Positions 12,592 to 21,571 of a DNA stretch of 64,000 bases are shown in pieces. Source of the DNA: an uncultured Pelagibacteraceae bacterium (lineage in GTDB: Bacteria; Pseudomonadota; Alphaproteobacteria; Pelagibacterales; Pelagibacteraceae); contig CACGGD010000001.1 of assembly GCA_902572605.1 (NCBI GenBank), positions 221,861-285,860 of the forward strand, given 5' to 3'. The notes below the pieces were generated by a model that was not told the origin of the DNA, ran no database searches, and worked only from the letters and a program-made list of their open reading frames with translations. The position numbers and the translations under genes were made by a program. Position 1 is the stretch's first letter. Each line of letters begins with the position of its first letter.

Positions 12592-12873
12592 TTGTCTCGA
12601 CCCGAGCTCATTAAACTACTTAAAAAAAAACATCCAAAACTTATTAAACCTCAATTAGAAACCATCATTGATACTTTTTTTGAAAGTATTAAGGAAGCTT
12701 TAATGAAAAAAAGATCTATTGAATTGCGTGGTTTTGGCACTTTTTTTATAAAAGAAATTAAAGAAAAATACTCTGCAAGAAATCCCAAAACGGGAGAGCT
12801 GATTTATGTGCCAAAAAAGAATAAGGTAAGGTTTAGAGCTAGTAAACAATTTAAGGAGTTTTTAAATCAATGA
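12592..12873 (+). CDS. ihfB: HU/IHF-family DNA-binding protein, IHF beta-like
   Basis: 'ELRGFGTFFIKEIKEKYSARNPKTGE'; TTG start directly after the rpsA stop. Confidence 0.85.
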   Translation: MSRPELIKLLKKKHPKLIKPQLETIIDTFFESIKEALMKKRSIELRGFGTFFIKEIKEKYSARNPKTGELIYVPKKNKVRFRASKQFKEFLNQ

Positions 12874-13529
12874 AAAAACCAAAAATATTTATAGCTTGTG
12901 ATACTACAAATTTAACAAAAGTAAAAAAAATAATATTTCAATCACAAACAAATAAAATAAAGATTGGCTATAAATTTGGATTAGAATTTATGAACTCTAA
13001 AAAAGGAAGAGAGTTTGTATCTAAATTAAGAAATAAGATTATTTTTGTTGATCTCAAATTAAATGACACAGTACATACAATGATATCAACCGTGAAAGCA
13101 TTGAAAGATTTAAAGATAAATTACCTTACCGTTCATATTTCATCGGGGTTAGCTGCTCTAAGAGCAGTTAAAAAAGTTTCTGGGTCTATCAAGATAGTTG
13201 GGGTATCAACTTTAACATCGCTTAATAACAAAGATTTAAAAATAATAGGATACAATAGATCAGTTAAAAATTTAGTAAGCCATCAAGCTAAACTTGCTAA
13301 AAAAGCAGCATTGGATGCTTTAGTCTGTAGTCCTTTTGAAGTGAATATTGTCAGGAAGATTTTTAAGAAAGAAATCATTACTCCTGGAGTGCAAATAGGT
13401 AAAAAAAACTATGATCAAAAAAGGTCTATGGAAGCCAAAAAAGTCAACTCAGATTGGTTAGTCATAGGGCGCTCAGTAACGAGGGGAAGTATTAAAAAAA
13501 ATATTCAAAAGCTCATCAAATCATTATAA
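12870..13529 (+). CDS. pyrF: orotidine 5'-phosphate decarboxylase homologue
   Basis: 'FVDLKLNDTVHT' (D-K-D triad), 'GVQIGKKNYDQKR', 'VIGRSVT'; ATGA overlap with ihfB. Confidence 0.75.
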   Translation: MKKPKIFIACDTTNLTKVKKIIFQSQTNKIKIGYKFGLEFMNSKKGREFVSKLRNKIIFVDLKLNDTVHTMISTVKALKDLKINYLTVHISSGLAALRAVKKVSGSIKIVGVSTLTSLNNKDLKIIGYNRSVKNLVSHQAKLAKKAALDALVCSPFEVNIVRKIFKKEIITPGVQIGKKNYDQKRSMEAKKVNSDWLVIGRSVTRGSIKKNIQKLIKSL

Positions 13530-13537
13530 AAGAAATA

Positions 13538-14767
13538 ATGATGAAGATTAAAAAGGGTGTTCAGTTAATAGACCAACATGACAAAAATTATATGTATGGT
13601 GGTAAATTTGGTGGCAATTTCATTCCTGAAACTCTTAAAAAACCTATTGATGACTTAACTAAATTATTTTTTAAACTTAGAAAAGATAAGAAATTTCTAA
13701 AAGAAAGAGATTATCACTTTAAAAATTATATTGGAACACCAACACCTTTTATTAAATTAGAAAATTTAACTGATCATCTAGGAGGAGCTCAAATTTATGC
13801 AAAAGTTGTTTCTGAAGCTAATGGAGGAGCTCATAAAATTTATAATGCAACCGTTCACTGTCTAATAGCTAAAAGAGCTGGAAAAAAATATATTGTTGGA
13901 GATACAGGAGCTGGTTATGCTGGCAAAATGCTTTCTATGGCAGCCAAAAAATTTGGTCTTAAGTGTAAAATTTTTATGGGAGCCAAAGATATTAAAAGAC
14001 AAAGACCGAATGTCCAAGCTATTAAAAAAAATGGCGCCCAAATTGTGCCTGTTACTACGGGAAGTCAAACGCTTGTGGATGCTGTTAGTGAATGTATGCG
14101 TTACTGGGTTTCAAATTGCGACACTACTCATATGTGTGTAGGATCAACAGTAGGTCCCAACATATTTATAAAGATTTGTGCTTGGAGCACAGCACAAATT
14201 TCAAGAGAATTAATGGTACAAGTTAAAGAAGAATTTGGAAAAATTCCAAATAAATTAAAGTTATTAAATTGTGTTGGTGGTGGAAGTTCTGCTATGGGTT
14301 TTTGGAATGAGTTTATGAATACAAATGCTGAATTTATTGGCATTGAAGCTGGAGGACCAAGAAAAAGCAAGTTACACGCCGCTCCTCTTACTAATGGATC
14401 AAAAATTGGAATACTTCATGGAGCTGCCCAATACGTAGTTCAAGATAAGGAAGGTCAAATTAGTCCTACAGAGTCGATTTCTGCAGGTTTAGATTATCCA
14501 GGAATTTCTCCTCTTCATTGTTTTTTAAAGGACACAAAACGTGCAAGTTATGTCTCTGCAACTGATGAAGAGGCTCTAAATGCTTACAAACTTGTTTCTA
14601 AATTAGAAAATATTTCTCCATCTTTAGAACCATCACATGCTTTTGCTCATGCAATTTCTATTTCTCCAAAATTAAAAAAGTCTGATGTTATTATTGTAAA
14701 TAGCTGTGGGGACTCATTAAAAGATAAGGACATCATAAAGAGTAAATTAGGAACTTACATAAGATGA
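13538..14767 (+). CDS. trpB: tryptophan synthase beta-like PLP enzyme with divergent active-site motifs
   Basis: Full-length TrpB scaffold; PLP lysine in 'NGGAHK', 'VGGGSSA', 'SAGLDYPGISP', 'LEPSHA'. Confidence 0.8.
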   Translation: MMKIKKGVQLIDQHDKNYMYGGKFGGNFIPETLKKPIDDLTKLFFKLRKDKKFLKERDYHFKNYIGTPTPFIKLENLTDHLGGAQIYAKVVSEANGGAHKIYNATVHCLIAKRAGKKYIVGDTGAGYAGKMLSMAAKKFGLKCKIFMGAKDIKRQRPNVQAIKKNGAQIVPVTTGSQTLVDAVSECMRYWVSNCDTTHMCVGSTVGPNIFIKICAWSTAQISRELMVQVKEEFGKIPNKLKLLNCVGGGSSAMGFWNEFMNTNAEFIGIEAGGPRKSKLHAAPLTNGSKIGILHGAAQYVVQDKEGQISPTESISAGLDYPGISPLHCFLKDTKRASYVSATDEEALNAYKLVSKLENISPSLEPSHAFAHAISISPKLKKSDVIIVNSCGDSLKDKDIIKSKLGTYIR

Positions 14768-15564
14768 AATCTAAAATTAAAATAGCTTTTGAAAAATGTA
14801 AAAAAGAAAAAAGGCCTGCGCTTTTAACCTATACTGTAGCAGGAGATAACACCAAAAAAAATTCGTTGAAAATATTGAATTCAATTTCAAAGTATGCTGA
14901 TATTTTAGAACTAGGTTTTCCTCACAACACACCAATAGCTGATGGAGGACAAATTCAAGGAAGTTCTCATAGGTCTCTAAAAAATGGAATTAAATTAAAA
15001 GATGTTTTTCAAATAGTAAAAAATTTTAAAAAAACTAATCCTTTGAAACCTCTTATTTTAATGGGTTATTATAATCTAATTTATCAAAATGGTGAGAGTA
15101 ATTTTTTAAACAGCTGTAAATCTTCAGGTGTTGATGGAATTATTGTTGTTGATTTACCATGGCCAGAAAACAAAAATTTTTCAAATAAATGCAAAAAAAA
15201 ATTTATAAACTTTATTCAACTTTTGTCACCTACAACTTCAAAAGATAGAATGAAAAAAATAATTAAAGACTCTCATGATATGATTTATTATATCAGTATG
15301 CTGTCTACGACAGGTGGAAAATTAAAAGTTTCTCCAAAAAAGATTCTTGAAAATTACGAAAAAATAAAAAGATATAGTGGAAAAAAAAATCTAGTGATAG
15401 GGTTTGGAATAACAAATAAAACTATCGCCTCTCTAAGTGCAGCTGATGGATTAGTTGTGGGTAGTCAATTATGTAAGACTATTACGGATTCTATTAAAAA
15501 AAGACAAAATCCTGTCACAAAATTAAATAAAGTAGTATATAATTTGAGAAATCAAATCATATGA
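14764..15564 (+). CDS. trpA: tryptophan synthase alpha-like TIM barrel with divergent motifs
   Basis: 'ILELGFPHNTPIADGGQIQ', 'GFGITNK', 'VVGSQLC'; ATGA overlap with trpB. Confidence 0.8.
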   Translation: MKSKIKIAFEKCKKEKRPALLTYTVAGDNTKKNSLKILNSISKYADILELGFPHNTPIADGGQIQGSSHRSLKNGIKLKDVFQIVKNFKKTNPLKPLILMGYYNLIYQNGESNFLNSCKSSGVDGIIVVDLPWPENKNFSNKCKKKFINFIQLLSPTTSKDRMKKIIKDSHDMIYYISMLSTTGGKLKVSPKKILENYEKIKRYSGKKNLVIGFGITNKTIASLSAADGLVVGSQLCKTITDSIKKRQNPVTKLNKVVYNLRNQII

Positions 15565-16478
15565 ACTGGATAACAAAATTTATAAAGCCAAAAATTAAAT
15601 CACTCTTTGAAAAAAGATCTTCAAAAACAAAAGAAAATCTTTGGACATCATGTGAATGTAAAAATTTAATTTATAAAGAAGATCTTGCATCTAATTTTAA
15701 TTGTTGTCCCAAGTGTGGAGCTCACCATAAATTATCTTGTAAAGAAAGATTTGAAACTTTTTTTGATAATAAAGAATATGAATTAATAAAGACTCCTTTA
15801 CCAAAGGATGATCCTTTGAAATTTGAAGATAATAAGAAATATGAAGATAGGTTAAAATCAGCTAGGAAAATCACTCAGCAGGATGATGCTGTAGCAATAG
15901 CAAAAGGTAAAGTTAAAGATATTAATGTTGTAGTAGGTGCACAAGATTTTAGATTCATTGGAGGATCTTTTGGTGCAGCCTCCGGAGAAGCGTTCATTGC
16001 AGGTATTCAACATTCAATTGAAAATAATAAGCCATTTATCTTTTTTAGTTGTAGCGGAGGACAAAGAATGATGGAGTCATCAATTGCTTTAATGCAAATG
16101 TCTAGAACTGCTTTAGCTGTAAATGAATTAAAGAAAAAAAATATTCCTTATATAGTTGTTTTAACAAATCCTACAACGGGAGGTGTCACAGCTTCCTGGG
16201 CTATGTTAGGTGATATTTTAATTGCTGAACCTAAAGCAACTATAGGTTTTGCTGGGAGACGTGTAATTCAAGACACGGTAAGAGAGACTTTACCAGAAGA
16301 ATTTCAAACAGCAGAGTATGTAAAAGATCATGGTGGTATAGACCTAGTGGTTGAAAGAAAATATTTAAACTCAACTATAGGAACTTTACTAAATGTATTG
16401 TTGAAAAAAGCAGAGGCTCAGGCTAAAAATGAGTCATCTAATGTCACAATCGATCGATCTTTACAATCAGCTAGCTAA
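15561..16478 (+). CDS. accD: acetyl-CoA carboxylase carboxyltransferase subunit beta
   Basis: N-terminal zinc ribbon, 'SCSGGQRMMESSIALMQM', 'PTTGGVTASWAMLGDILIAEPKATIGFAGRRVI'. Confidence 0.95.
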   Translation: MNWITKFIKPKIKSLFEKRSSKTKENLWTSCECKNLIYKEDLASNFNCCPKCGAHHKLSCKERFETFFDNKEYELIKTPLPKDDPLKFEDNKKYEDRLKSARKITQQDDAVAIAKGKVKDINVVVGAQDFRFIGGSFGAASGEAFIAGIQHSIENNKPFIFFSCSGGQRMMESSIALMQMSRTALAVNELKKKNIPYIVVLTNPTTGGVTASWAMLGDILIAEPKATIGFAGRRVIQDTVRETLPEEFQTAEYVKDHGGIDLVVERKYLNSTIGTLLNVLLKKAEAQAKNESSNVTIDRSLQSAS

Positions 16479-20532: not shown

Positions 20533-20721
20533 TTATTTTCCTCTAGCAATATCAATTTGCATCTGTGTCCATTGATCTCCAGGATCGTAGTCCGGGTTCT
20601 CTTCCATAAATGCTTTTTCATCCTGGAGCATTTCAGCTAGATCTCTTCCACATGGTTCGAAATCCTCATAGATATATTTTTTTTTATCTATCTCAGGTTT
20701 TATTTTTTTTCTTTTAGACAT
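20533..20721 (-). CDS. small hypothetical protein (MSKRKKIKPEIDKKKYIYEDFEPCGRDLAEML...)
   Basis: ORF; SD AAAGGAGGG precedes the internal ATG at 20721, preferred over 20736. Confidence 0.6.
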   Translation of the reverse strand: MSKRKKIKPEIDKKKYIYEDFEPCGRDLAEMLQDEKAFMEENPDYDPGDQWTQMQIDIARGK

Positions 20722-21571
20722 CTGCCCTCCTTTCATTCATTTTTTTAAGTTTTAAACCTTTATTCCAGGCAACCTGGGCACCTTTCTTTCCCTTGTTCCA
20801 AGGAACATGTCCTTTGTGACTTAAAGACATTCTCATTCTTGTCTCCATAGAAAATTTCTTTCCTTTATTCCAGGCAAGTTGAAGTCCTTTCTTTCCTTTA
20901 TTCCACGGCTCATTACCTTTATTCCACATAAATTTTTTTAAATTTTTTCTTAATTTAGCTTTATGTTTTTCACTTTTAGGAACTCCCTTTCGCATTTCTG
21001 ACATTTTCAATCTTGTTTCTTCTGATGCTTTTCTTCCTAAATTTGCTAATCTTATTTTTTGTCGGGTTTCCAAACTTCTCTTAACCCCAATATTTCCTTT
21101 TCTTATATTTTCAATATGTGTTTTACTCAGTTTTCTTCCTCTTCTCATTTTTGACAATTTTGCTTTAGTTTCTAAACTAGCTTTTTTTCCTTTGTTACCT
21201 TTTGATATTTTTAATCTCGTTTCTTTCGAAGGCTTCTTACCTAATAGTGGGTGCACCTTATTTAAAATTGCTGGGAAAGCATTTTTATTTATCCAATTTT
21301 CATTTTTGTAAATTTTTCTATTGTATTTTGTTTCATATAATCTTGCCTCATTAACAGTGTCGAAAGTCCAACAAAACTTAATTTTAAAATTTGACGGATT
21401 ATTTTTAAATTCATTTCTTATTTCCCTACTACTTGTAAAGTAAACTACTCGTAGATCTTTTATTGGAGGCACCTTATTTCCCCATCTAACACCATGGTAT
21501 TTCTTATTGTCTGACAATCTAGTTACTAAATAAGTATAAGGTTTGATTTTATTGAATTGTTTTGTTTTCAT
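20714..21571 (-). CDS. putative phage-type homing endonuclease: divergent GIY-YIG-like N-terminus plus NUMOD3 repeats
   Basis: 'YTYLVTRLSDNKKYHGVRW', 'YFTSSREIRNEF', 'EARLYETKYNRKI', then repeated 'GKKxSxETRxKIS' and 'WNKGKKG' motifs. Confidence 0.75.
   Translation of the reverse strand: MKTKQFNKIKPYTYLVTRLSDNKKYHGVRWGNKVPPIKDLRVVYFTSSREIRNEFKNNPSNFKIKFCWTFDTVNEARLYETKYNRKIYKNENWINKNAFPAILNKVHPLLGKKPSKETRLKISKGNKGKKASLETKAKLSKMRRGRKLSKTHIENIRKGNIGVKRSLETRQKIRLANLGRKASEETRLKMSEMRKGVPKSEKHKAKLRKNLKKFMWNKGNEPWNKGKKGLQLAWNKGKKFSMETRMRMSLSHKGHVPWNKGKKGAQVAWNKGLKLKKMNERRADV
20741..21247 (-). repeat. intragenic tandem repeats encoding about 7 NUMOD3-like modules and 5 WNKG motifs
   Basis: Repeated peptide units read from the translation: KKPSKETRLKIS, KKASLETKAKLS, VKRSLETRQKIR, RKASEETRLKMS, KKFSMETRMRMS, etc. 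Confidence 0.8.

Follow-up and report, generated by a model that had tools for sequence, protein, structure and literature searches.

A SAR11 tryptophan synthase beta subunit with a substituted active site that probably still makes tryptophan

We investigated a trpB gene in a 64,000-nucleotide stretch of DNA (hereafter, the window) from an uncultured Pelagibacteraceae bacterium (assembly GCA_902572605.1, contig CACGGD010000001.1, positions 221,861 to 285,860, forward strand). The source genome, 909 kb long and 82% complete, belongs to SAR11, whose members rank with the most abundant of all ocean cells. The original prediction, made from the sequence alone, held that the gene product, the beta subunit of tryptophan synthase (TrpB), had lost most of its signature active-site motifs and was possibly neofunctionalised. 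The features concerned, in window positions, are as follows.

13538..14767, + strand: trpB, D-type tryptophan synthase beta subunit of 409 amino acids with an ATG start (TIGR00263, PDB matches and predicted fold)
13835..13837, + strand: codon of the pyridoxal phosphate (PLP) lysine K87 in Escherichia coli numbering (protein residue 100, in GGAHK), read from the sequence and invariant in all types
13901..13924, + strand: catalytic loop DTGAGYAG, protein residues 122-129, with D122 at the Glu109 position (alignment)
14276..14290, + strand: PLP-phosphate loop at protein residues 247-251, reading GGGSS where canonical TrpB has GGGSN (alignment)
14702..14728, + strand: SCGDSLKDK replacing canonical L(S/C)GRGDKD, protein residues 389-397 (alignment)
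14764..15564, + strand: trpA, alpha subunit (TrpA) of 266 amino acids, with a 4-base overlap with trpB (TIGR00262, 203.8 bits; cut-off 102.35)
12870..13529, + strand: pyrF, 8 bases upstream of trpB (profile and locus comparison)
15561..16478, + strand: presumably accD, the conserved downstream neighbour, named partly from the usual composition of the trp neighbourhood

The product of 13538-14767 is a TrpB1, the normal and sole tryptophan synthase beta subunit of SAR11. It scored 396.3 bits against the TrpB1 profile TIGR00263, narrowly over the cut-off of 392.45, which was exceeded by a match in only 12 of the 41 selected SAR11 genomes, and 98.5 bits against the TrpB2 profile TIGR01415, far below the cut-off of 518.85; in Pfam, it falls into the PALP family. 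Its matches among solved structures were TrpB1 enzymes (Pyrococcus furiosus and the last bacterial common ancestor, LBCA) with E-values as low as 1e-105; TrpB2 structures were much more distant matches. The predicted structure matched the TrpB fold with a probability of 1.00, best that of P. furiosus TrpB (template modelling score of approximately 0.8); the AlphaFold model is of moderate quality (mean predicted local distance difference test score 70, residues 273-331 below 50), and pocket geometry is not argued from it. The TIGR00263 score and K87 in GGAHK bear out the TrpB scaffold with PLP lysine described in the original prediction. Named matches were Pelagibacteraceae ('Ca. Pelagibacter' TMED128, 91%; HIMB058, 89%; Fonsibacter, 79%), and 258 of the 297 Pelagibacterales genomes contained a match to this protein with E < 1e-100. 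Loss of TrpB was considered for genomes without a match (G033, G114, G137, and others), which made up 7 of the 150 genomes at least 90% complete; this is about what assembly gaps would produce, and we claim no loss.

We compared 113 distinct SAR11 TrpB sequences of this type (the D-type set) with a canonical set of 34, made up of E. coli TrpB plus 33 canonical-like sequences, of which 32 are alphaproteobacterial TrpB and the remaining one (L122) is an outlier of 475 amino acids; E. coli residue numbering is used throughout. All motifs quoted in the original prediction (KVVSEANGGAHK, GDTGAGYAG, GPNIFI, GGGSS, and NSCGDSLKDKD) were present in the translation. Aligned with the canonical set, the window TrpB carries H82N, E109D, Q114Y, H115A, V117K, and K167V in its first half and H195N, P196I, Y197F, P198I, N236S, S377C, R379D, G380S, and D381L in its second, and retains H86, K87, R141, D305, and E350. 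Position 109 was Asp in 113/113 D-type sequences versus Glu in 34/34 canonical ones, and the PLP-phosphate loop was GGGSS (S236) in 113/113 versus N236 in 34/34. The Schiff-base lysine K87 was likewise found in 113/113, as were C377, V170, R141, and E350; the presumptive domain-closure pair R141/D305 was thus kept almost throughout, with D305 in 112/113. Overall, 80 positions were conserved and identical in the two sets, and 28 were conserved in both with a different residue; nucleophile-side pocket residues 186, 188, and 115 differed in the D-type. Not every proposed departure stood: the Ser change within NLSGRGDKD (S377C) is ordinary, since 26 of the 34 canonical sequences have Cys, and so is GGAHK, since E. 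coli TrpB itself reads HGGAHK.

In the tree, D-type TrpB formed a single clade (support 100) on a stem of 1.24 changes per column. Between the window trpB and a 91%-identical relative (L033), nonsynonymous divergence (dN) was 0.037-0.060 and synonymous divergence (dS) 0.87-1.19. Because D109, S236, V170, and C377 are invariant in 113 sequences, the D-type is a fixed, selected state rather than drift, in agreement with the earlier view that the changes cluster at the active site and are constrained. The best explanation of these alignments is that the state arose once on the long stem branch and has since been held by purifying selection. No relatives of D-type trpB were found in viral contigs.

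The pyrF-trpBA-accD locus of SAR11 holds five TrpB active-site architectures, each with a matching TrpA, and each non-canonical type is one clade in the tree. Besides the D-type, these are as follows.

Canonical TrpB: G039 (L114) and G129, from alignment
Type III TrpB: G050 (L115) and G121, with Q114A, R141L, and D305N
Type IV TrpB: G073 (L138/L197) and six others, with T110S and D305Q/T
Type V TrpB: G005 (L116), G118 (L156/L198), G233, and G317, with R141K and K167L

In some SAR11 pairs, the flanking genes were better conserved than trpBA: between the window and G005, which are of the same genus, TrpB and TrpA were 29% identical, versus 84% for the flanking pyrF and 61% for rpsA. From such pairs, we infer in-place replacement of trpBA by recombination.

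The window TrpA retains E49, D60, Y175, T183, G184, G213, G234, and S235, with D56 changed to T; among TrpA encoded beside D-type TrpB, E49 was found in 106/106 and D60 in 105/106, and the other six of these residues are kept as well. In the SAR11 and canonical sets, beta-K167 was kept where alpha-56 was acidic (D in canonical, E in types III and IV) and was lost (V/I or L) where alpha-56 was neutral (T/C/A), as in the D-type and type V. Both partners of the inter-subunit salt bridge alpha-D56/beta-K167 have thus been lost in the D-type, in which K167V/I meets D56T/C/A. Judging from this covariation, TrpA and D-type TrpB seem to have adapted to each other, as would be expected of subunits that form a functioning complex.

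A second trpB, which the original prediction had suggested looking for, was not found in the 82%-complete window genome, whose only other PALP-family protein (458 amino acids) is probably threonine-synthase-like. One genome (G066) encodes a DmdA that matches 3tfh, the enzyme of 'Ca. Pelagibacter ubique' HTCC1062, at every one of 369 residues, and we take G066 to be that strain. It has a D-type TrpB and no other TrpB-level match, the next TIGR00263 match reaching only 36 bits; trpE, trpG, trpD, and trpC lie in a row beside lexA, and a trpF-sized gap of 615 bases separates pyrF and trpB. HTCC1062 has been grown in defined medium on glycine, glycine betaine, pyruvate, and dimethylsulfoniopropionate without tryptophan (PMC5069961), and it therefore makes its own. 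The D-type is thus the sole tryptophan synthase of a prototroph, which is indirect evidence for the window strain. Additionally, indole-3-glycerol phosphate synthase (trpC) was present in 43/43 tested relatives at least 90% complete and in 15/16 of another set, and TrpD and TrpF were also common in relatives. At the window locus, trpF, which usually lies between pyrF and trpB in SAR11, is absent, leaving a gap of 8 bases (13529-13538), and it is missing from this position at about 20 related loci as well. In the close relative G014, the nearest of the genomes searched, trpE, G, D, and C are intact and no phosphoribosylanthranilate isomerase match was obtained; the role of trpF may fall to a different isomerase, perhaps HisA. 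Separately, TIGR00263 matches of 454-459 amino acids and 144-152 bits occurred besides the usual trpB in three genomes of the family, at G203:C14:22224-23258, G252:C3:59633-60667, and G233:C14:15117-16151; HTCC1062 had none.

Taken together, we consider, with a probability of roughly 0.86, that the window TrpB is a functional SAR11 tryptophan synthase beta subunit with a rebuilt catalytic pocket and loop. That the D-type makes tryptophan is inferred from its partner, the pathway, and the prototrophy of HTCC1062, with no alternative enzyme visible. As in other bacteria, TrpA would cleave indole-3-glycerol phosphate to indole, and TrpB would form the PLP-aminoacrylate from serine and couple the indole to it. 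At the aminoacrylate step, Asp in place of Glu109 would presumably serve as acid/base. The alignment shows GAGYAG instead of GAGQHG in the serine-carboxylate loop and Ser instead of Asn236 in the PLP-phosphate loop; the alpha-D56/beta-K167 salt bridge is gone on both sides, and R141 and D305 are retained. The following weighs against this reading: the window TrpB is 80% identical, and not identical, to that of HTCC1062; the 82%-complete window genome gave no trpC, trpD, or trpF match, although trpC and trpD may lie in assembly gaps; and Brzovic et al. are said to have found in 1992 that E109D in the Salmonella enzyme strongly lowers tryptophan synthesis.

A rival reading that builds on the neofunctionalisation of the original prediction would have TrpAB make another beta-substituted amino acid, with tryptophan imported or made otherwise. 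The replacement and refixation of E109, Q114, H115, N236, and R379, the missing trpF in the window lineage, and the trpC and trpD not found in the window genome all point that way, but HTCC1062, with the same TrpB type and no other, grows without tryptophan, trpC is near universal, G014 has trpEGDC intact, and TrpA keeps its indole-3-glycerol phosphate lyase residues. Moreover, sister lineages carry E109-type TrpB beside TrpA at the same locus, as expected for interchangeable types. We therefore rejected it as the principal explanation and regard it as improbable: a derived, constrained active site rather than decay was correctly foreseen, whereas a changed overall reaction is not supported, given the prototrophy of HTCC1062 and the retained TrpA residues. 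The large clade sharing these substitutions, functional as judged from prototrophy, tells against the prediction by its own terms. A little less probable still is an enzyme with two functions, in which Asp109 and the altered carboxylate loop would yield another beta-substitution product in vivo besides tryptophan; TrpB enzymes are known for their promiscuity, and nucleophile-side residues 186, 188, and 115 differ, but no genomic partner or substrate points there and most relatives have other PALP enzymes. A decaying gene or sequence error might be suspected in a reduced genome with broken copies in some relatives, but the reading frame is intact, dN is well below dS, and the derived residues are invariant in 113 sequences, so that conservation already refutes this and its likelihood is negligible.

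In four genomes, a single additional base interrupts trpB at one shared position, in the catalytic-loop codons (ATT GTG GGG GAT ACC A followed by GGC).

G004, L117:4196-4213, - strand: trpB frameshift site
G007, L118:3670-3687, + strand: trpB frameshift site
G009, L119:4487-4504, - strand: trpB frameshift site
G026, L120:3413-3430, + strand: trpB frameshift site

The 18-base core GTGGGGGATACCAGGCGC is identical in all four and occurs in no other genome's locus among the 270 compared; elsewhere, the DNA identity between the four genes is 76-85%. Both halves are under purifying selection, with dN much lower than dS before as well as after the shift. GLR[E/Q]I, the residues directly before the shift, occurred in 0/113 intact D-types. 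Outside this stretch, the protein sequences do not place the four together (approximately unbiased test, p 0.002), and their backgrounds are not one clade. TrpC and TrpD were present in three of the four, and no intact second trpB was seen in them. Programmed +1 ribosomal frameshifting is the simplest reading and a candidate mechanism; we would liken the site to the +1 signals of prfB (Shine-Dalgarno-like G run) and Ty1 (AGG-C), and the product would contain a peptide spanning IVGDTGAGYAGK. The idea that the frameshift is common to many Pelagibacter genomes proved wrong, as most of these carry intact, 64-65%-identical copies. Elsewhere in the window, a 285-amino-acid open reading frame (20714-21571, - strand) has repeated SxETRxK/WNKGKK-type motifs and, judged by eye, resembles a homing-endonuclease-type (NUMOD) DNA-binding protein.

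In the textbook view of tryptophan synthase, Glu109 and the alpha-beta salt bridge are central; SAR11, numerically one of Earth's leading bacterial groups, seems to dispense with both in making tryptophan. These natural variants let enzymologists probe which elements of the mechanism are indispensable, offer engineers new TrpB starting points, and warn that motif loss is not the same as function loss. More tentatively, and with the odds somewhat against it, D-type TrpAB may represent another way in which nature has built a tryptophan synthase, the chemistry resting on Asp109 and a remade serine-carboxylate loop and the alpha-beta communication being rewired. It would then be one of at least five SAR11 architectures replacing each other at one locus, some of which may take other nucleophiles in vivo.

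The literature searched contained no description of active-site changes in SAR11 TrpB. Kagan et al. (2008) reported a distinct SAR11-like TrpB1 cluster with single-copy trpB and an inferred function; in the accessible part of that paper, from which the name accD was also drawn, the cluster is described by tree distance and active-site changes are not mentioned (PMC2395257). TrpB2 and TrpB-like proteins (TIGR01415) have the PALP fold and PLP chemistry in common with the D-type, whose score is far from that profile cut-off. Engineered TrpB variants with a changed nucleophile scope (PfTrpB 2B9/4D11 and TmTyrS1) were among the PDB matches of the window TrpB; these are laboratory mutants, from which the natural D-type substitutions differ in combination. 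Canonical TrpB1 (E. coli/Salmonella; P. furiosus, 1wdw; LBCA, 5ey5) shares with the D-type its fold, PLP lysine, R141, D305, and E350, a trpA partner as operon neighbour, and approximately 40% identity, whereas the D-type differs in E109D, Q114Y, H115A, N236S, R379D, and K167V and in an inter-subunit salt bridge lost on both sides.
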